Positions 49,972 to 58,823 of a DNA stretch of 64,000 nucleotides are shown here, in pieces. Location of the stretch: NCBI GenBank assembly GCA_021772775.1, contig JAJFLH010000019.1, forward strand, positions 1-64,000, in the 5' to 3' direction. The notes below the pieces were generated by a model. It was not told the origin of the DNA. It saw only the letters and a list, made by a program, of their open reading frames with translations, and searched no databases. The stretch comes from Mariprofundus sp. GTDB taxonomy: Bacteria; Pseudomonadota; Zetaproteobacteria; Mariprofundales; Mariprofundaceae. The stretch's first letter is position 1. Every line of letters starts with the position of its first letter. The translations under genes and the position numbers were made by a program.

Positions 49972-50367
49972 ATGCAGAAATTGGAAACACTGGTTACTGA
50001 AGTTGAGGGCGGCCTTGCAGCGGCGGTCGTTGATTTGAATAATGGTTTGATTGTTGATGCATATCACAATGTTCCCTATTTTACGCAATCCTATATTGAT
50101 GCTGTAGGGGTGGCTGCTGTCGACATGTTCCGTGGCAAAACCATTACCGCAGTAGAAACGATGATGGCTGCTCAGCGCGGTGGCGAAATCAGCTACCATG
50201 TCAAAGAGATTCAGATGACAACAGACGGCACTTACCACTTCATGGCAGTGCTGCCAGATAAACCCGACTATTTACTTATTTTAGTTACTCGCACCACCAC
50301 TAGCTTAGGCGCTGGATGGATGGCAACCAGAAATGTTATGCAAGAGGTTGCTGAATTCTGCCCATGA
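49972..50367 (+). CDS. Roadblock/LC7-like protein 1
   Basis: 131 residues. The fold pattern is Roadblock/longin-like: VEGGLAAAVVDLNNGLIVDA at the start, two central helices (SYIDAVGVAAVDMFRG), and paired strands near the end (HFMAVLPDKPDYLLILVTRT). Such proteins usually dimerise and act on Ras/MglA-type GTPases or as adaptors. No GTPase gene is near. Followed by a hairpin at 50414-50443 and convergent with the kinase-phosphatase gene. Confidence 0.6.
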   Translation: MQKLETLVTEVEGGLAAAVVDLNNGLIVDAYHNVPYFTQSYIDAVGVAAVDMFRGKTITAVETMMAAQRGGEISYHVKEIQMTTDGTYHFMAVLPDKPDYLLILVTRTTTSLGAGWMATRNVMQEVAEFCP

Positions 50368-50413
50368 TGATCTAAGAAAATGCTGATTATATCATCCAGG
50401 TAATAAGCAGCAT

Positions 50414-50443
50414 GCACAGGCAAAAAGGTGGCTTTGCCTGTGC
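50414..50443. terminator. hairpin between convergent genes
   Basis: GCACAGGCAAA and TTTGCCTGTGC pair perfectly (11 bp) around an 8-base loop. It is 46 bases after the Roadblock gene's stop and 78 bases past the convergent gene's stop. No T-tract, so intrinsic termination is uncertain. Confidence 0.55.
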
Positions 50444-50521
50444 TTACAAATCAGTCTCTAGGGGCTTGGTTTGCAGACTATACGAGGTCTGCGCGGAAGT
50501 GCTGAATAAACAATCACTTTC

Positions 50522-52054
50522 TTAACGCCCCTCGCGCAATCGTTTGATCAGTTGTTCCGGGAATTTTTGTTTCTCCATGTCTGCAATGACCCGTGTTATA
50601 TCATAGGGTGTGCTTAGCATCTTCACTTTGTTTTCTTCTGGGTAGAATATAGCCACCTCAGCGATCACTTCAACTTCGCCGCCTCGGGGTTGTCCCACAG
50701 AACCCGGACACACCAATGCCGCTTCAAACCCTCGCAGATTAATATCACCCTTTGTTTTATCAAAAGCCAGATATTGTCCCGCTTGAAGTGCATAGACACC
50801 TTGAATATGAGAGTGTCCGTGTAGACAGAGAGATACTCCGATCTTTTTAAGATGATCTAAATTACGCTCTGATGTCATATTGTAGACATAGCCATTGAAA
50901 AAACTTTTATCAACGGGAGAGCCGTGAATGGCCATCCAACCGTTCATCTGATGGCGTACCGGCAGCGCACCCAGCCACATTTTTTCGTCATCATGCAGCT
51001 GGCCAAGAGTCCAGTCGGCCGTCCATTTTGCCATCTTACCCATAGCCACTCTGACATCACCATTATGCGCAACATAATGATCGTGGTTGCCACGTATGCA
51101 GAACATGTTTCGTTGTCTGATTAACTGAATACACTCATTTGGGTTCGGCCCATAACCGACTATATCCCCCAGCATCAAATATTGACGTACGCCATGGCTA
51201 TCGAGTTCTTTCAAAATAGCCTCAAATGCCGGTAGGTTAGCATGTACATCGGCAATGAGGGCAATTGGTTCCGAAGTCAGAAACTCACCTTTGGCTTGTT
51301 GAGTCATGGTGAATTTATATACAGGTCGTAGAGCGGTTAGAAACTCCATCTTTAATGTTTCTTGCTGACCTACGATCTGATCAATAATACCTTCACGAAC
51401 CATGTCTTCGGCATCAGAGGAGTGGGCTCGCAATAGCGGTTGCAGGAGTTCGCCCAGTTTTTTCCATGTATCTGCATCCATCGCTAAAACATCTGACTTT
51501 CGCACCCAGTTGCCGAGCATGGCGGAGAGAGAAGAAAAATTATCCCAAGGGTAGATATCATCATCGAGATAACAGACATGACCATCCAAAATGCCAAAGT
51601 TCGATAGACCTTCATCCAGACGTAGTCCGAACTCAGATGTGAAGTTCATATATATTTTTAGTACTTCAAGTAACCGGCGTGTACGCTCATTGATATCCAA
51701 AGAGTGAAAATCCACCGTGTGCAAGGCCTGCATGCGGGGGGTGATATTGGCAACCATCCACTGCTCATTCATGGCAAATACCAGCCACGTACGCTGGGAG
51801 TGATAAACACCATAGCCTTTCTCTTTTTCGATTTGTAAGGAGCACCATTTTTCAGCTACCGACAGCGAGGGGAAACCATTGCTTCGACTGATTTTTAACA
51901 CCCATTGTTCATTAATATAGATAGAGGTGTCAGGTTTACCTGTAAAGTCACCATTGTATTTCAAGGCGACTTTTTCACTATTCAATAAGCCTTCAATTGC
52001 CTGTTTATCAACCGGGCTGCTGCCGCAAAGGCTTCCTATAATACTTATGTTCAT
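50522..52054 (-). CDS. fusion: kinase-like domain + calcineurin-type metallophosphatase
   Basis: 510 residues. Residues about 30-190 look like a protein-kinase fold: VLKI (candidate Lys), a catalytic-loop pattern with Asp and Asn five apart (RLDEGLSNFG), and a DFG-like Asp in VCYLDDDIYPWD. Residues about 265-500 are a YfcE/MJ0936-type phosphatase with full metal motifs: ALIADVHANLPAF, LMLGDIVGYGPNP, CIRGNHDHYV, MAIHGSP and CLHGHSHIQG. Divergent from the Roadblock-ODP operon (210 bp between), suggesting a shared signalling role. The kinase part is inferred by motif only. Confidence 0.65.
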   Translation of the reverse strand: MNISIIGSLCGSSPVDKQAIEGLLNSEKVALKYNGDFTGKPDTSIYINEQWVLKISRSNGFPSLSVAEKWCSLQIEKEKGYGVYHSQRTWLVFAMNEQWMVANITPRMQALHTVDFHSLDINERTRRLLEVLKIYMNFTSEFGLRLDEGLSNFGILDGHVCYLDDDIYPWDNFSSLSAMLGNWVRKSDVLAMDADTWKKLGELLQPLLRAHSSDAEDMVREGIIDQIVGQQETLKMEFLTALRPVYKFTMTQQAKGEFLTSEPIALIADVHANLPAFEAILKELDSHGVRQYLMLGDIVGYGPNPNECIQLIRQRNMFCIRGNHDHYVAHNGDVRVAMGKMAKWTADWTLGQLHDDEKMWLGALPVRHQMNGWMAIHGSPVDKSFFNGYVYNMTSERNLDHLKKIGVSLCLHGHSHIQGVYALQAGQYLAFDKTKGDINLRGFEAALVCPGSVGQPRGGEVEVIAEVAIFYPEENKVKMLSTPYDITRVIADMEKQKFPEQLIKRLREGR

Positions 52055-52263
52055 TGCATCAGGAAGGTGAGAGGGGGTTGGGATAACATCATAGAGCTAG
52101 AGCTACGATATTTTAGTGCATGCGTCAAATTAATCAGTCAGAGTGTGGAAATACAGACAGTCTTAAACTGAGTCTTTATTCAGAAAAAAAACTGTTGCAA
52201 AGTTTTTAGTGGAAACCCTCTTATATTTAGGGTTAAATTACAGCTTGCTTGGAGGGATTAGAA

Positions 52264-52644
52264 TTGAAAGTCACATTGGATCAACATTTACAACTCATTC
52301 TTGAGGAAGTGCGTCAACAGCATAAAATGCATTCGCTGCTGCTTGCTGACCACCATGGTTTGGCGGTTAGTCATGCCGGAGAGATAGCGCATGCTGGCAT
52401 GTCTGCGATTGCACCTGAGCTTCTCAGAGTTGGTGAACATGCTAAACGTTTGGGAGAATACGATAGCATTACTTGTGTTGCCCTTGTGCTTGAAGACTCT
52501 CATTTGATGGTCATCAAAGACCTTGATGTGGGGGGCGAGCCTTTTGTACTGGTCATGGATACCGCAGCGGTTCCAAAGGGAATGATAAAAATGCTAGCTA
52601 ATCTGGGTGAACGGATTGCTGATGCTATGGCTCTGGACAGGTAA
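52264..52644 (+). CDS. Roadblock/LC7 domain protein 2
   Basis: About 126 residues with a Roadblock/LC7 pattern: SLLLADHHGLAVSHAGEI, HAGMSAIAPELLRVGEHAKR, HLMVIKDLDVGGEPFVLVMD. The start is taken as TTG 52264 because GGAGGGA (52251-52257) is 6 bases before it; TTG 52249 overlaps that site. Probable dimeric regulator of a small GTPase. First gene of a run with the diiron protein (44 bp) and Roadblock protein 3. Confidence 0.72.
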   Translation: MKVTLDQHLQLILEEVRQQHKMHSLLLADHHGLAVSHAGEIAHAGMSAIAPELLRVGEHAKRLGEYDSITCVALVLEDSHLMVIKDLDVGGEPFVLVMDTAAVPKGMIKMLANLGERIADAMALDR

Positions 52645-52688
52645 TCTTAATAGCAAAAATAAAATGATATCGAGGGGTTAATCATATT

Positions 52689-53438
52689 ATGGCAGATATA
52701 CTGTTTGAAAATGAAAATCATAAATGTGTGTTTTTTGAAGACTTTACTGAAGGTGAAATGATATCTGCGAATCAGCATTTAATTATTCATAATGGTAAAG
52801 GAATGTTGTTAGATCCGGGTGGGCACAAGGTTTATGCAAAACTTTTCTCAGCTCTGCCTGATCACCTGCCACCAGCTTCTTTGGAATATCTATTTTTATC
52901 TCATCAGGACCCGGATATTGTTGCATCAGTTAATGGCTGGTTAATGATTACTGATGCTGATGCCTATATGTCTGCAATCTGGCGTCGTTTTGTGGCTCAT
53001 TTTGGCGTTGATGGCAGCGTAATGGATCGTATGAAAGAGATCCCAGATGGTGGTATGAAGCTTGACCTTCAAGGTTGCGAGCTGCAGTTGATTCCTGCTC
53101 ACTTTTTACACTCTGCCGGCAACTTCCATGTTTATGATCCTATTTCAAAGGTTCTTTATACTGGTGACCTTGGTGCTGCCATCGTTAATTACCGTTTTGT
53201 TGAAGATTTTGATGCTCATGCGGCGGAAATGATCGGTTTCCATAATCGTTATATGGCGAGTAAAACAGCATGCCAGCTGTGGGCAAAAATGGTGCGTGAA
53301 CTGGATATTGAAATCATTGCTCCGCAACATGGTGCTATGTTCAAAGGTAAAGAGATGTGCACACGTTTTATTGATTGGGTGGAAGTTCTTGAGCCTGGTG
53401 CTGATGCGATGAAGGATAGCTATAAATTACCTGCATAA
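52689..53438 (+). CDS. oxygen-binding di-iron (ODP-like) MBL-fold protein
   Basis: 249 residues of the metallo-beta-lactamase fold in its flavodiiron/ODP form. Metal-site text includes YLFLSHQDPDIVASV (with DPD instead of the HxEHxD of flavodiiron proteins), AHFLHSAGNFHVYD, VLYTGDLGAA and IIAPQHGAMFKG. ODPs, known from Treponema and Thermotoga, bind O2 at a diiron centre and in chemotaxis systems act as oxygen sensors. No flavodoxin domain follows. It lies between two Roadblock genes, which points to O2 signalling. AGGGGTTA precedes the ATG. Confidence 0.78.
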   Translation: MADILFENENHKCVFFEDFTEGEMISANQHLIIHNGKGMLLDPGGHKVYAKLFSALPDHLPPASLEYLFLSHQDPDIVASVNGWLMITDADAYMSAIWRRFVAHFGVDGSVMDRMKEIPDGGMKLDLQGCELQLIPAHFLHSAGNFHVYDPISKVLYTGDLGAAIVNYRFVEDFDAHAAEMIGFHNRYMASKTACQLWAKMVRELDIEIIAPQHGAMFKGKEMCTRFIDWVEVLEPGADAMKDSYKLPA

Positions 53439-53488
53439 ATGAATTGTAATAGTGATAAAAAATAAATATGTTAAAACGGGAGATGTAA

Positions 53489-53854
53489 ATGGCAACGAAA
53501 CAGGAAAAAATCAATGCAATTCTAAATGAGTTGAAAATGGCGACATCTGACATCAAAGGTGCAGGTGTTATCAGTCCGGACGGCATGATGATTGCTGATC
53601 AGTTGGGTGGAAACCAGGGCGATGCTGCGGCAGCCATGGGTGCTGCACTTGGTAGTTTGGCTAAACGTGTTACAGACACATTGAAAGTGGGTGACTTCCA
53701 GGAAGTTAACATCCGTGGTGCAAATGCTGGTATTTTGTTGTTCGATATTGAGCACAGAGCATCATTGATTGTGATTGTTAATCAAGGTGCAAACCTTGGC
53801 CTAGTCCTACTTGAAGCCAGACAGGCGCAATCTCAACTCGGTCAGATGATCTAA
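53489..53854 (+). CDS. Roadblock/LC7 domain protein 3 (MglB-like)
   Basis: 121 residues, the clearest Roadblock protein of the three: INAILNELKMATSDIKGAGV, VISPDGMMIADQL, AAAMGAALGSLAKRVTDTLK, NAGILLFDIEHRASLIVIVN. MglB proteins of this type are GTPase-activating partners of MglA in polarity systems. No mglA in the window. GGGAG precedes the ATG; 50 bp after the ODP gene; followed by a terminator at 53884. Confidence 0.82.
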   Translation: MATKQEKINAILNELKMATSDIKGAGVISPDGMMIADQLGGNQGDAAAAMGAALGSLAKRVTDTLKVGDFQEVNIRGANAGILLFDIEHRASLIVIVNQGANLGLVLLEARQAQSQLGQMI

Positions 53855-53883
53855 TAGAAGACTGTTAAAGATTAACTATTAAA

Positions 53884-53917
53884 GCGGCGGAACCATTCTG
53901 GTTTCGCCGTTTTTATT
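53884..53917 (+). terminator. intrinsic terminator after the Roadblock-ODP run
   Basis: GGCGGAACCA and TGGTTTCGCC form a near-perfect stem around a 4-base loop, followed by GTTTTTATTC. It separates the Roadblock-ODP-Roadblock run from the globin gene. Confidence 0.8.
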
Positions 53918-54058
53918 CTATAAGTAATAATTGTAAACGGAATAAGCAGGCATTTATCGGTAACAGATCTTTAAGAGCAGAATGACACAGTGGTTTAAGT
54001 GTGCTTAGGATGCTGAAGCTTGTTTATTATTAATGGAAAAATATTGGAGAATATAGCA

Positions 54059-54577
54059 ATGTCAGAAACTACAAAAAATAATTTCAATAGAGCAAAAGCA
54101 TTTTGCAATTTTGATGCTGTATATGCACCACTGTTGCCTACGATTAAAGATGTGGTGATGAAACACGGTGATGAAATCACCAATACATTTTATGCGGAAC
54201 TGGCTAATGATGAGGTCGCTGCTGCAATTGTGAGTGGCCGAGTTGAGCAACTAAAGGTCACTCATAAGCAATGGATGGAAGAGTTGTTCAATGGTGAATA
54301 TGGCGATGCTTATTTTGCGCAGCGTTATAAAATCGGTGAAACACACGTTAGGGCCAAGATTGAACCATATTTCGTGGAAGTTATTACCTCCTTCCTGCGC
54401 CGTAAGTTTGCAGAAGTATTAAGTGATAATCCCAAGGCTCTTGAAGCCGCTTTGACTATATTGGATCTCGATGCAATTATTATCATTGGTGCTTATCACG
54501 AAGATCGTATGAAGCGTATGTCTGAAGTTACTGGTATGAATCAGGCGCTGCTTGAAAGGCTGATGAGTTTTGGTTAA
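54059..54577 (+). CDS. stand-alone protoglobin / sensor globin
   Basis: About 172 residues of the protoglobin/globin-coupled-sensor family: FCNFDAVYAPLLPTIKDVVM, HKQWMEELFNGEYGDAYFAQ, and the likely proximal His in KIGETHVRAKIEPYF. It should bind haem and O2, NO or CO. No output domain follows, unlike globin-coupled sensors. ATG 54059 has GGAG at 54046-54049; upstream in-frame starts are unlikely. Its own terminator is at 54603. Confidence 0.85.
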   Translation: MSETTKNNFNRAKAFCNFDAVYAPLLPTIKDVVMKHGDEITNTFYAELANDEVAAAIVSGRVEQLKVTHKQWMEELFNGEYGDAYFAQRYKIGETHVRAKIEPYFVEVITSFLRRKFAEVLSDNPKALEAALTILDLDAIIIIGAYHEDRMKRMSEVTGMNQALLERLMSFG

Positions 54578-54693: not shown

Positions 54694-55359
54694 TTATACC
54701 TTTTCAGCAACTGAAGTCATCACCTTTGATGTTAATTTCATCATCTGTTTGATCGGTTGCGGAAGATCTGCTGCTCCCAAGTGTTCTGCTAATTCGGCAT
54801 GACCTTGTTCATCTATTTTCATCTGCTCCACAATAGCGCGACTGCGATCATCTTCTTCAGGTAGACGATCCAGGTGATCATCCAAATGGCGTACAACCTG
54901 ATGTTCAGTCTCAGCGAGAAAGCCAAGATTCCAGCGATCACCAGCGATGCCTGCAGCCATGCCAATGGCGAAAGAGCCGGTATACCAAAATGGATCAAAC
55001 AGGGAAGGGCGCTCATCCAACTCTTCAAGGCGTTTGCGACACCAGTTGAGATGGTCCGCCTCTTCCAGCGATGCATTTTTTAGTTTGTCGACCAATTTGG
55101 GGTCTCGAGCTGTCAGGCTTTGGCCTTGATACAGAGCCTGAGCAGCCATCTCACCAGAGTGATTTACGCGCATAAGAGCTGCAGCGTGTTTTTTCTGTGC
55201 ATTTGAAAGCGTTGATGTATCAGGATCTTTAGCATCTGCCGGATAAGGACGTGAGCTGGTTTGCCTGCAAAAAATATTATTTAGAGCGCGATCAAACTCG
55301 CCAATAAGCTTATCAGTGATAGTCGATTGTCTAAAGTTAGATTTCATGTGACTAATCAT
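54694..55359 (-). CDS. coq7: Coq7-type demethoxyubiquinone hydroxylase
   Basis: 221 residues. Diiron ligands sit in VNHSGEMAAQALYQGQ, SLEEADHLNWC, LAETEHQVVRHL and KIDEQGHAELAEH, the typical E/ExxH pattern of Coq7. It makes the last hydroxylation in ubiquinone synthesis, using O2. Start ATG 55359 or the internal ATG four codons on; neither has a clear Shine-Dalgarno. The DnaA-box cluster 70-104 bp upstream may influence its promoter. Confidence 0.93.
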   Translation of the reverse strand: MISHMKSNFRQSTITDKLIGEFDRALNNIFCRQTSSRPYPADAKDPDTSTLSNAQKKHAAALMRVNHSGEMAAQALYQGQSLTARDPKLVDKLKNASLEEADHLNWCRKRLEELDERPSLFDPFWYTGSFAIGMAAGIAGDRWNLGFLAETEHQVVRHLDDHLDRLPEEDDRSRAIVEQMKIDEQGHAELAEHLGAADLPQPIKQMMKLTSKVMTSVAEKV

Positions 55360-55428
55360 AAAACGAGTTGGCTACAGCGCAATAGTGGGTTTGGAGTATG
55401 AACCATTTTTTTTCAATGGCTTTTTTAT

Positions 55429-55463
55429 CTATCCACACAGGTTGTGGATAACTATGTGGATGA
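55429..55463. promoter_or_regulatory. three-DnaA-box cluster (DARS-like), copy 2
   Basis: CTATCCACA at 55429-55437 (forward), TGTGGATAA at 55443-55451 (reverse) and TGTGGATGA at 55455-55463 (reverse). Gaps of 5 and 3 bases are identical to copy 1 at 3529-3563, and the 11 bases TTGTGGATAAC are identical. The site lies between the divergent side of coq7 and the 3' end of hpnE. Either a DnaA-regulatory locus or a DnaA-controlled coq7 promoter. Confidence 0.65.
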
Positions 55464-55642
55464 ATCCCTTCTAACACCTGTGATTTATTAGGATAAGAGA
55501 GGGTTGAATGTGGTGGTTAAATATTATGCAATGATTTTATTTCATATATTTCAGTATGTTATGATCTTAAGTTAAAGTACCTTTGTAAAGGTGGAGAATG
55601 AAGAGTAGGGGCCCTGACATATCAATGTCAGGAGTGGATAAT

Positions 55643-56935
55643 TTACCTTTTGAGTCTATCCAAGCAGGAATTTGCTGCATTTTCACCACGTTGAACGGCC
55701 CATTCAATCGTCGCAGGCAGATCCCCCGGTTTTGAGCGCTCTGAGGCGTCGATAACAGCCTGTGGAAGAACTTGCTCGTCATGATCATGGCGCACCAGAA
55801 CAGTGGCTCGTTTTTCCCTGACAATGCGGTAATGGACAGGCGTTAATGCATACAGAGATGTGATTGCCCTGATTTCATCCCTGATGATTTGCACCAGTGT
55901 TAAATCATCCAGCTTACTCTGATCAGCGCTGATGACAGCGCACAAATGTCGCAATTTGCTTTGATCATGCATTTGCGACGAGACATCAAAAAACCATTGC
56001 CCGGTAGTACCTAGACTGCCAATCAGTAGAGATGGAAGATGAACCTCCTGTTCAAACCAGAGGTGAATATTACAAATAGCTCGGGTTTCGCATGAAGTTG
56101 GGCGATTGAGTAAGCGGTCAGTAGCATAGGCTGGCAAAGCAAGGATAACATGTTGAAATGATTGCCCTGCGATTTGGATAGAGTCCTCAATCTCCTGCAG
56201 TGACCGAACGCATGTCCGGGTATGCAGTTTCACGCCTAGTTGTTGTGCGCGTTCACAGAGCGGGTCTATCAGTGCTTGATCCAATGGTTTTGTAAACCAA
56301 CCAAGGCGAGCCTGTTTGTGGCTGGAGAAGCTTTCATGCAACACGCGCCGAAATGATGATGCGCAGGCGGTATCCATACTTTCGTTCATGGCGCCGAGAC
56401 ATAATGGTTCGATAAGGTCGTGAATAAGTTGATTGGGCATAGAGAGTTGCTGCATCCACTCTTGCACTGTGCAGCTATCATCCATATCAGATTTCAATGT
56501 GGTAGCCAGTTTTACCATCGCCAGTGGGGATGTTTGATCATGGCCGGGCAGTTCGCCGACTGCTTTGAGTAGGGCCAGATTAAAAGGTAGCCAAGTTGTG
56601 GGTTTAAAAGAAAAACTACCACGCTGTGACTCCCAAAGCGGCAAATGCAGGCTGGATTGCCAATGAATATGATGTGAGATACCACAATCCTGCATGAGTT
56701 TTTGTGTGGTCTGGTAGGCTCCAACAAGTAGATGTGGGCCGTTATCACAAAGGCAATCTACCTTGCCTTCATAAAAGGATCGGGTTCTTCCACCCGCTTT
56801 AGGCGCAGCTTCAAACAGATGAACATCAATACCCTGTTCAGCCAAACGGATAGCAGCAGTTAAGCCGGTTAAGCCTGCACCGACAATGGCAACTGGTTTG
56901 TCTGGCTGTTGATCTGAAAGTCTCGACTTTGAAAT
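55643..56935 (-). CDS. hpnE: hydroxysqualene dehydroxylase HpnE
   Basis: About 430 residues if it starts at ATT 56935. It is an FAD-dependent amine-oxidase-fold enzyme that converts hydroxysqualene to squalene after HpnD and HpnC. The FAD motif VAIVGAGLTGLTAAI lies upstream of the first ordinary start (TTG 56845), so the gene must begin earlier. In that stretch there is no ATG, GTG or TTG; the only good candidate is ATT 56935, preceded by GGAG at 56943-56946 with a 7-base gap and just after hpnD's stop. Downstream motifs: EAAPKAGGRTRSF, DNGPHLLVGAY. Confidence 0.85.
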   Translation of the reverse strand: MSKSRLSDQQPDKPVAIVGAGLTGLTAAIRLAEQGIDVHLFEAAPKAGGRTRSFYEGKVDCLCDNGPHLLVGAYQTTQKLMQDCGISHHIHWQSSLHLPLWESQRGSFSFKPTTWLPFNLALLKAVGELPGHDQTSPLAMVKLATTLKSDMDDSCTVQEWMQQLSMPNQLIHDLIEPLCLGAMNESMDTACASSFRRVLHESFSSHKQARLGWFTKPLDQALIDPLCERAQQLGVKLHTRTCVRSLQEIEDSIQIAGQSFQHVILALPAYATDRLLNRPTSCETRAICNIHLWFEQEVHLPSLLIGSLGTTGQWFFDVSSQMHDQSKLRHLCAVISADQSKLDDLTLVQIIRDEIRAITSLYALTPVHYRIVREKRATVLVRHDHDEQVLPQAVIDASERSKPGDLPATIEWAVQRGENAANSCLDRLKR

Positions 56936-56936
56936 A

Positions 56937-57821
56937 TCAGAACTCCAGCTTCAATGGTAGATTCTTTTTGATAGCTTTGGACTCATAACGCCAGCTGCGC
57001 CAGGCAATCCAGATTTTTCTTAGCGGTAGGGTGTGAACCGGGTGCTTCCAGACATCAAACTTCACATCTCTGAGCTCTTTCATATAAGCATAATAGATAG
57101 TCGCCATCACAATGGAGGGGCGGAGGCTCTCTCTATCTTCATCCGGCAGACAGGAGAGTGCCTGTCTGTAGGCGGCTTCGGCTTTATCGGCATATTCACC
57201 CAATAGCTGTTGCATTGCTTCATTGCACTCACCATCTTTGAAATCCTGATCGCTGATGCGGTAACGAATTCTATCTTCCTGAGGAATATAAATTCGGCCA
57301 ATGCGCATATCTTCAGCAACATCACGCAGAATATTGGTCAGCTGTAGCGCTTCTCCCAGTGAAGTAGCAAAATCACGTGATTTACGATTTTTGTAACCGA
57401 ACACTTCGATACTCAACAGGCCAACTACGCCGGCTACACGGTAAATATACAAGGATAGATCAGATGCTTTGAGTATCGGTTTACGCATCACATCCATCAG
57501 CATACCATCAAGAATTTCAGCCAATAACTCTTCATCAATAGCGAAATGTTGTTTGGTCCAGTGTAACTCCTGGCCTACGGGGTGGCTTGGTTTGTCTGCG
57601 AAAACACGGGATAGCTCTTCACGCCAAAATGCCAGTTTGGGGAGTGCGACCTCCTGCTCTTTAATTTCATCAGCAATATCATCTACCTCTCGGCAAAAGG
57701 CATACAGTGCCATAATAGCACGGCGCTGATCTTCAGGTAAAAAGAGAAAGGCATAGAAAAAGGAGGAGCCGGAGCCTCTGGTTTTATCGCGACAATACTG
57801 TTCAGGAGTCATAGGAACCAT
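56937..57821 (-). CDS. hpnD: presqualene diphosphate synthase HpnD
   Basis: 294 residues of the squalene/phytoene synthase family. Two Asp-rich motifs: YAFCREVDDIADE and LTNILRDVAEDMRIGRIYIP. It joins two farnesyl diphosphates to presqualene diphosphate. Start ATG 57821, or the ATG three codons later. It ends inside the ribosome-binding region for hpnE and starts 28 bp after hpnC. Confidence 0.93.
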   Translation of the reverse strand: MVPMTPEQYCRDKTRGSGSSFFYAFLFLPEDQRRAIMALYAFCREVDDIADEIKEQEVALPKLAFWREELSRVFADKPSHPVGQELHWTKQHFAIDEELLAEILDGMLMDVMRKPILKASDLSLYIYRVAGVVGLLSIEVFGYKNRKSRDFATSLGEALQLTNILRDVAEDMRIGRIYIPQEDRIRYRISDQDFKDGECNEAMQQLLGEYADKAEAAYRQALSCLPDEDRESLRPSIVMATIYYAYMKELRDVKFDVWKHPVHTLPLRKIWIAWRSWRYESKAIKKNLPLKLEF

Positions 57822-57849
57822 TCTATAGTCATAGAATTCTGTGCTGTAT

Positions 57850-58758
57850 TCATGATGTTTTATTTATTCCTTTAGGTGGGAGCATAGTGTCTTTTAATAT
57901 GGGTAGAGCGAGAATCTTCCAATCGGATTTACTCACGGTAACGCGTTCATTTAATGGGTCTTCTAACTGTCCAATTCTCTTTAACATCAGGCGGCCGGCA
58001 TGAATGGTCGCAGCAATTTGCAGGCGCAGACGAAAAGGAATCATGCTAAGCAGGGGCACACCAGCCTCAAGAATATTCGCTGTTTCAAGGATGGCTTTTG
58101 ATAAAGCGGGTTGCAGTTTTTTTGAATCAATCTCGCCATCGAGAAGCTGCTGACCGGAAATTCCGAACTCCTGCAGCCAGCTTTCAGGCAGATAGCAGCG
58201 GCCCTTGGGCACGTCGACACTCAAATCCTGCCAGAAATTAATCAGTTGCAGTGCTGAACATATTTTATCCGAGCATTGAATCGCATCTCTTTCACGAATG
58301 CCGTGCAGCTGCAGCATTAAACGCCCAACCGGGTTGGCTGAGTGTTTACAATAAAACAGTAACTCATCCAGTGAGGAGTAGGCATGGATCGTGACATCCA
58401 TTCGAAAGGCGATGAGTAGATTATTTAACTCTTCAATATCGAGGTCGAATGACTGTATGCTATCTCTTAAAGCTATAAATATGGGTTGATCAACGAGCTC
58501 ACCATGCTCGCAGCGCTCCAATAGTGTTTCCCAGGCATCAAGCTGTTTGAGCCGTGTTTCAGGCAAGGCATCACCTTCATCTGCCAGATCATCAGCATGA
58601 CGGGCAAATGCATAAATGGCTGCAACGGCAGGGCGTAAGTCAGAGCGCAACAGCTTGGATGCGGTAGGGAAATTCTCATAGTGACTTCGTGCGATATCCA
58701 GGCAATGTTGATAAGCTTGCGCTAACGGTATTGGCTGTTGTTGTGTCAAATTAGGCAT
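57850..58758 (-). CDS. hpnC: hydroxysqualene synthase HpnC
   Basis: About 302 residues, also squalene/phytoene synthase family: IYAFARHADDLADEGD, then LQLINFWQDLSVDVPKGRCY. It converts presqualene diphosphate to hydroxysqualene. ATG 58758 (MPNLTQQQ) gives a normal length; an in-frame ATG at 58806 would leave only 17 bp to the divergent thiO start, so the shorter form is preferred. Neither has a clear Shine-Dalgarno. No squalene-hopene cyclase is near, so products beyond squalene are not shown by this window. Confidence 0.9.
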   Translation of the reverse strand: MPNLTQQQPIPLAQAYQHCLDIARSHYENFPTASKLLRSDLRPAVAAIYAFARHADDLADEGDALPETRLKQLDAWETLLERCEHGELVDQPIFIALRDSIQSFDLDIEELNNLLIAFRMDVTIHAYSSLDELLFYCKHSANPVGRLMLQLHGIRERDAIQCSDKICSALQLINFWQDLSVDVPKGRCYLPESWLQEFGISGQQLLDGEIDSKKLQPALSKAILETANILEAGVPLLSMIPFRLRLQIAATIHAGRLMLKRIGQLEDPLNERVTVSKSDWKILALPILKDTMLPPKGINKTS

Positions 58759-58823
58759 GGCTGCATGGTGGCAATGCAGCAGAGTTTCCGCAAGCGCATA
58801 AAACATTTTCTAAGGAGAGTAAG

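Follow-up and report, generated by a model that had tools for sequence, protein, structure and literature searches.

A conserved pairing of an oxygen-binding diiron protein with Roadblock proteins in Zetaproteobacteria and its possible link to an MglA/CvnD-like GTPase

Oxygen-binding diiron proteins (ODPs) are known from Treponema denticola and Thermotoga (6qnm and 6qrq), together with a cytoplasmic chemoreceptor, and the Treponema ODP is reported to sense O2 in chemotaxis (PMC7666581). Roadblock proteins, in turn, are established regulators of MglA-type GTPases (PMC4316618). In this study, we analyzed a stretch of 64,000 nucleotides from the genome of Mariprofundus sp., a marine iron oxidizer of the Zetaproteobacteria (contig JAJFLH010000019.1; hereafter, the window), in which an initial annotation had placed three Roadblock proteins (here RbA, RbB, and RbC), an ODP, a stand-alone protoglobin, and a kinase-phosphatase fusion (KP) within one island. 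Each of these genes was found where it had been placed, and the three Roadblock proteins, the ODP, and the protoglobin were borne out by Pfam searches, structure models, and matches in the Protein Data Bank (PDB).

The window ODP is like its Treponema and Thermotoga relatives in family, in its ligand pattern (HQDPD...H...D...H), and in being a stand-alone protein within a signaling gene cluster. In contrast to those systems, it is grouped with Roadblock proteins, joined in sister species by a small GTPase, rather than with an array of methyl-accepting chemotaxis protein (MCP) and CheA; there is no MCP gene in the island, which has Roadblock genes instead. The MglA-MglB polarity module of Myxococcus and Thermus also clusters Roadblock proteins with an MglA-family GTPase, and the models of RbA and RbB are closest to MglB, whereas Mariprofundus has six distinct Roadblock-like genes, the ODP, KP, a protein termed P210, and a GTPase that is distant from solved MglA. 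The actinobacterial conservon (CvnA histidine kinase, CvnB Roadblock protein, CvnC, and CvnD GTPase) is similar in joining a Roadblock protein and a CvnD-like GTPase in one signaling unit; in the clusters that we read, however, neither a CvnA-type histidine kinase nor a CvnC-type protein was recognized, and the ODP is the candidate sensor. Single-domain protoglobins and globin-coupled sensors share PF11563 and the proximal-histidine motif with the window protoglobin, which stands alone and is optional in the island. Each of the components, namely, ODPs, Roadblock proteins, and MglA-type GTPases, is known, and a conserved unit combining them was not found in the literature. Our search, which was thin on subscription journals, found no paper pairing an ODP or metallo-beta-lactamase, or a protoglobin, with Roadblock proteins, in agreement with the view in the initial annotation that no described system pairs an ODP with Roadblock proteins and a free globin.

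The main finding is that the gene order around the ODP is conserved. Our survey covered the 18 Zetaproteobacterial genomes in which ODP identity reached at least 67%, and 17 of these were readable at the flanks. An RbC-type gene lies directly after the ODP in all 17 and RbB directly before it in 16; no RbB is present in the exception (G005 in our numbering), whose RbC is divergent (38% identity). The neighbors first grouped by adjacency in the window are thus conserved in related genomes. A related ODP also occurs in 27 of 284 genomes of the phylum Myxococcota, and in most cases a Roadblock gene directly adjoins the close Myxococcota ODPs. There, the frequent order is PAS histidine kinase, Roadblock protein, ODP, and receiver-domain regulator, followed in several genomes by another Roadblock-type gene. 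Since the pairing is conserved across genera and in a second phylum, chance adjacency is excluded, and RbB-ODP-RbC is a real, conserved unit.

The same association is apparent in a tree of 75 ODPs (71 distinct), in which all 36 Roadblock-adjacent ODPs fall within one clade of 47 (Shimodaira-Hasegawa-like approximate likelihood ratio test support of 86) and none among the other 28. The Roadblock-adjacent label changes 9 times on this tree, compared with a mean of 25 when shuffled, and some of the negative labels within the clade reflect contig ends (L136 and L149) or an intervening histidine kinase (L130). Outside the clade, the neighbor of the ODP is an MCP-type protein at L048 and a histidine kinase at L052. 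The latter locus holds a second ODP of the window genome (G000:C5, L052:6445-7251, minus strand), which carries the HQDPD motif and is immediately followed by a PAS-PAS histidine kinase gene, forming a putative separate O2-sensing two-component input.

Family membership, ligand positions, co-location, the Roadblock-tied ODP clade, and the GTPase co-location in sister species described below are all read from sequence. The window ODP matches PF19583 (E 1.6e-71 in Pfam) and aligns end to end with two solved ODPs, namely, 6qrq (E 1.6e-64, residues 3-246) and 6qnm (E 1.5e-55). All six diiron-ligand positions (H72, D74, D76, H141, D160, and H214) are present and invariant across 19 homologs from Zetaproteobacteria, Myxococcota, and others, and the solved ODPs carry the same six residues. 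By these marks, the protein called ODP-like in the initial annotation is a true ODP with a full set of predicted diiron ligands.

The three Roadblock proteins differ in how readily they are recognized. RbC matches Robl_LC7 (PF03259) above the Pfam cut-off (E 2.5e-10, 40.4 bits), RbB has only a LAMTOR5 match under the threshold (E 1.6e-4), and RbA had no match in either Pfam or NCBIfam. In AlphaFold models, RbA and RbB both display the order alpha-beta-beta-alpha-beta-beta-beta-alpha (H-EE-H(H)-EEE-H in the AlphaFold2 topology of RbA). In the PDB, both match Roadblock proteins best, with Thermus MglB (1j3w) being the top Foldseek match for each (E 5.3e-6 for RbA and 3.1e-6 for RbB). Mean predicted local distance difference test scores are moderate (72 and 73, respectively), with shallow alignments and a weak middle helix region in both. 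The two proteins thus model as Roadblock proteins and not as another fold. Their kinship to each other is drawn from the fold because RbA and RbB showed no signal when their profiles were compared. RbA is retained in Mariprofundus and in further Zetaproteobacterial lineages.

Given that the initial annotation had suggested O2-dependent control of a GTPase, the genes around the cassette in sister genomes are of particular relevance. In 8 of the 13 ODP-bearing Mariprofundus-group genomes (G001, G002, G003, G007, G010, G015, G016, and G020), the contig with the ODP also carries an MglA/CvnD-like GTPase at a distance of 1.2-4.0 kb. The cluster order, which could be followed from end to end in M. 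micogutta, Mariprofundus sp. KV, CG1_02_53_45, G001, G002, G003, and G010, is RbD-RbE-RbA-KP(reverse)-RbB-ODP-RbC-(protoglobin)-P210-small GTPase, and lytic transglycosylase and peptide-binding protein genes come after the GTPase in most clusters. Models matching the GTPase are ATP_bind_1 (E 9.2e-16), Arf, Roc, and Ras; in the PDB, its best relatives include solved MglA proteins, at a distant similarity of about 28-35 bits. We take its LFGTPGQ motif to resemble CvnD. P210 (L051:9017-9652 and relatives), a conserved protein, is encoded immediately ahead of the CvnD-like GTPase at most of the loci that we read and ends in a basic RIRGL-type tail, and a sixth small Roadblock-like gene, RbF (L051:13381-13752), lies 3' of the lytic transglycosylase and peptide-binding genes; neither P210 nor RbF has a match in Pfam or NCBIfam.

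In the window genome, this cluster is split. RbA, KP, RbB, ODP, RbC, and the protoglobin lie within the window, and RbD, RbE, P210, and the GTPase lie on contig C16 with the genes that usually flank them, so that the mglA-like gene sought elsewhere in the genome was found, beside RbD and RbE and not beside the ODP. The C16 locus is probably the ancestral site of these four genes. G009 and G011 likewise have ODP and GTPase on separate contigs. The set RbD-RbE-RbA-KP-P210-GTPase is present without an orthologous ODP in G028 and G037, whereas in G023 this set and RbB-ODP-RbC occupy two separate contigs. It seems that an older Roadblock-GTPase module received the ODP cassette, a direction taken from the distribution of the genes and not from a tree.

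KP is retained in one of two settings, flanked by RbA and RbB or next to RbA and P210-GTPase. Its C-terminal half matches Metallophos (E 1.8e-14 in Pfam), has 3rqz as the closest solved relative, and has phosphoesterase metal ligands that are invariant in nine orthologs, in line with the phosphatase half of the fusion initially annotated. The other half of that claim stands less firmly: no family match was obtained in Pfam or NCBIfam, and a profile search of solved structures matched the phosphatase half only. Residues K54, D147, N152, and D164-D166 of the N-terminal domain are, however, invariant in nine orthologs (39-68% identity), which is the expected kinase-like pattern, and "kinase-phosphatase" is therefore likely for KP, with an N-terminal half that is probably, though not proven to be, a kinase-like catalytic core.

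The protoglobin matches PF11563 (E 2.4e-20 in Pfam), and its proximal-histidine motif, KIGETHVR, aligns to globins 8h17 and 2w31. While its presence in the window agrees with the initial annotation, it is not conserved with the cassette: of 13 Mariprofundus-group islands, only four (those of the window genome, G002, G003, and G010) contain it. We set it aside as a core member since it is absent from most islands and lies beyond a terminator-like hairpin. In G002 (L058:5828-8537), the RbC-protoglobin unit is doubled, which suggests that the two genes move together in that genome.

Collectively, we favor, with modest confidence, the reading that an O2- (or Fe/O2-)sensing RbB-ODP-RbC cassette feeds a GTPase module via Roadblock adaptors. 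The diiron ODP would be the sensor, changing state on binding O2, and this state would be passed to partner proteins through RbB and RbC, which would serve where the Treponema ODP uses a cytoplasmic chemoreceptor. The Mariprofundus cassette would have been added to the older module of RbD, RbE, RbA, KP, P210, and the MglA/CvnD-like GTPase, where RbB and RbC may affect the nucleotide state of the GTPase by GTPase-activating, guanine nucleotide exchange, or scaffold action of the Roadblock set. KP could act through phosphorylation/dephosphorylation, and the protoglobin, where present, could serve as a second gas sensor or as a buffer. We postulate that the adaptor target differs by lineage, being the GTPase in Mariprofundus and a two-component system in Myxococcota. 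Physical contact, signaling direction, and the effect on the GTPase are what we infer here. More tentatively, and with some doubt, we envisage a directly O2-gated G-protein pathway in which the ODP, held by two Roadblock proteins, sets the GTPase nucleotide state and thereby orients a microaerophilic iron oxidizer in the O2/Fe gradient; Myxococcota would use the ODP-Roadblock pair again, with two-component systems. As for the pathway output, one may plausibly guess at placement in the oxygen gradient (polarity, stalk, or motility). Little is known of the environmental cues to which bacterial Roadblock-GTPase modules respond, and the ODP would be a sensor of known ligand type that is tied to such a module by conserved gene order, so that what the GTPase listens to becomes testable with purified proteins. 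ODPs would also gain a signaling role beyond chemotaxis, with a hint at how iron oxidizers of O2 gradients may sense their position.

Several observations weigh against a GTPase output. ODP and GTPase are on different contigs in the window genome, and three Mariprofundus genomes have the GTPase without an orthologous ODP. Four genomes of the genus labeled g9 (one of them cut after the ODP) keep RbB-ODP-RbC without an ortholog of the Mariprofundus GTPase and carry only another Ras/Arf-type GTPase, in genomes that are 56-93% complete; G005 keeps ODP-RbC, and neither the GTPase nor RbB was found in it. G411, a complete genome from Pseudomonadota, is a further case: the gene ahead of its ODP (L150:3-1346) encodes an AAA ATPase whose C-terminal domain is of the Roadblock type, and a PF00025 GTPase was not found above the threshold. 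The suggestion of O2-dependent GTPase control in the initial annotation is upheld in part, by the shared cluster in eight sister genomes, and weakened by the genomes that keep the cassette alone. The g9, G005, and G411 cases fit an alternative in which ODP and Roadblock proteins form an O2 input whose usual output is a histidine kinase and response regulator or another NTPase, the adjoining Mariprofundus GTPase not being the target. The Myxococcota gene order and the histidine kinase beside the second ODP of the window genome speak for a two-component output, and the AAA-Roadblock fusion speaks for another NTPase. Yet the Mariprofundus cluster is without a two-component kinase or regulator gene, the cassette sits within a Roadblock-GTPase cluster in eight genomes, and Roadblock proteins have the established role toward MglA-type GTPases noted above. 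We regard this alternative as unlikely, albeit the most serious of those considered.

Far less probable is that the ODP is a catalyst removing O2 or NO in the manner of flavodiiron proteins, with help from the protoglobin and with the Roadblock genes serving another role. The metallo-beta-lactamase diiron core is akin to that of flavodiiron proteins (weak matches to 1vme and 4dik) and a heme globin is nearby, but the protein of 249 amino acids is without a flavodoxin domain, no reductase was seen in the cluster, its closest solved relatives are named oxygen-binding diiron proteins, of which the one studied is an O2 sensor (PMC7666581), and it is the Roadblock pairing that is conserved and not the globin. 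That the island genes are mere neighbors without a functional tie, as the split of the window locus from the GTPase locus, the resemblance of RbA, KP, and the protoglobin to separate units, and the frequent absence of the latter might suggest, is very improbable in view of the RbB-ODP-RbC order across genera, the ODP-Roadblock pairing in Myxococcota, and the clade-wide association on the ODP tree.

The features of the window locus are listed in Table 1.

Table 1. Features of the island in the window (aa, amino acids)
Feature	Coordinates	Strand	Evidence
RbA, Roadblock-fold protein, 131 aa	49972..50367	+	fold model, PDB match MglB
KP, kinase-like N-domain and calcineurin-like phosphoesterase C-domain, divergently transcribed	50522..52054	-	Metallophos
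RbB, Roadblock-fold protein, 126 aa, TTG start	52264..52644	+	fold model, PDB match MglB
ODP, oxygen-binding diiron protein, metallo-beta-lactamase fold, 249 aa	52689..53438	+	PF19583
RbC, Roadblock/LC7 protein, 121 aa	53489..53854	+	PF03259
Terminator-like hairpin with T-rich tail, 15 pairs, after RbC	53881..53913	+	predicted
Stand-alone protoglobin, 172 aa, optional member	54059..54577	+	PF11563

The TTG start of RbB at 52264 is preceded by GGAGGG at 52251-52256, and the protoglobin starts with ATG at 54059. Since RbB and ODP are separated by 44 bases and ODP and RbC by 50 bases, and a T-tailed hairpin follows RbC, the three genes look like one operon and the protoglobin like a separate unit, although hairpin-type sites are no more common in this region than in shuffled sequences and the hairpin at 53881-53913 alone is weak evidence. 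No close copy was found in plasmid records. Elsewhere in the window genome (G000:C38, L068:5020-9196), a Ras-type GTPase (PF00071, E 2e-29) comes after a protein of 887 aa whose C-terminal domain is OmpA and before one resembling adenylate/guanylate cyclase. The window region 3' of the island (54694-58806) holds coq7 and genes resembling the squalene-forming hpnC, hpnD, and hpnE types, which are unrelated to the island.

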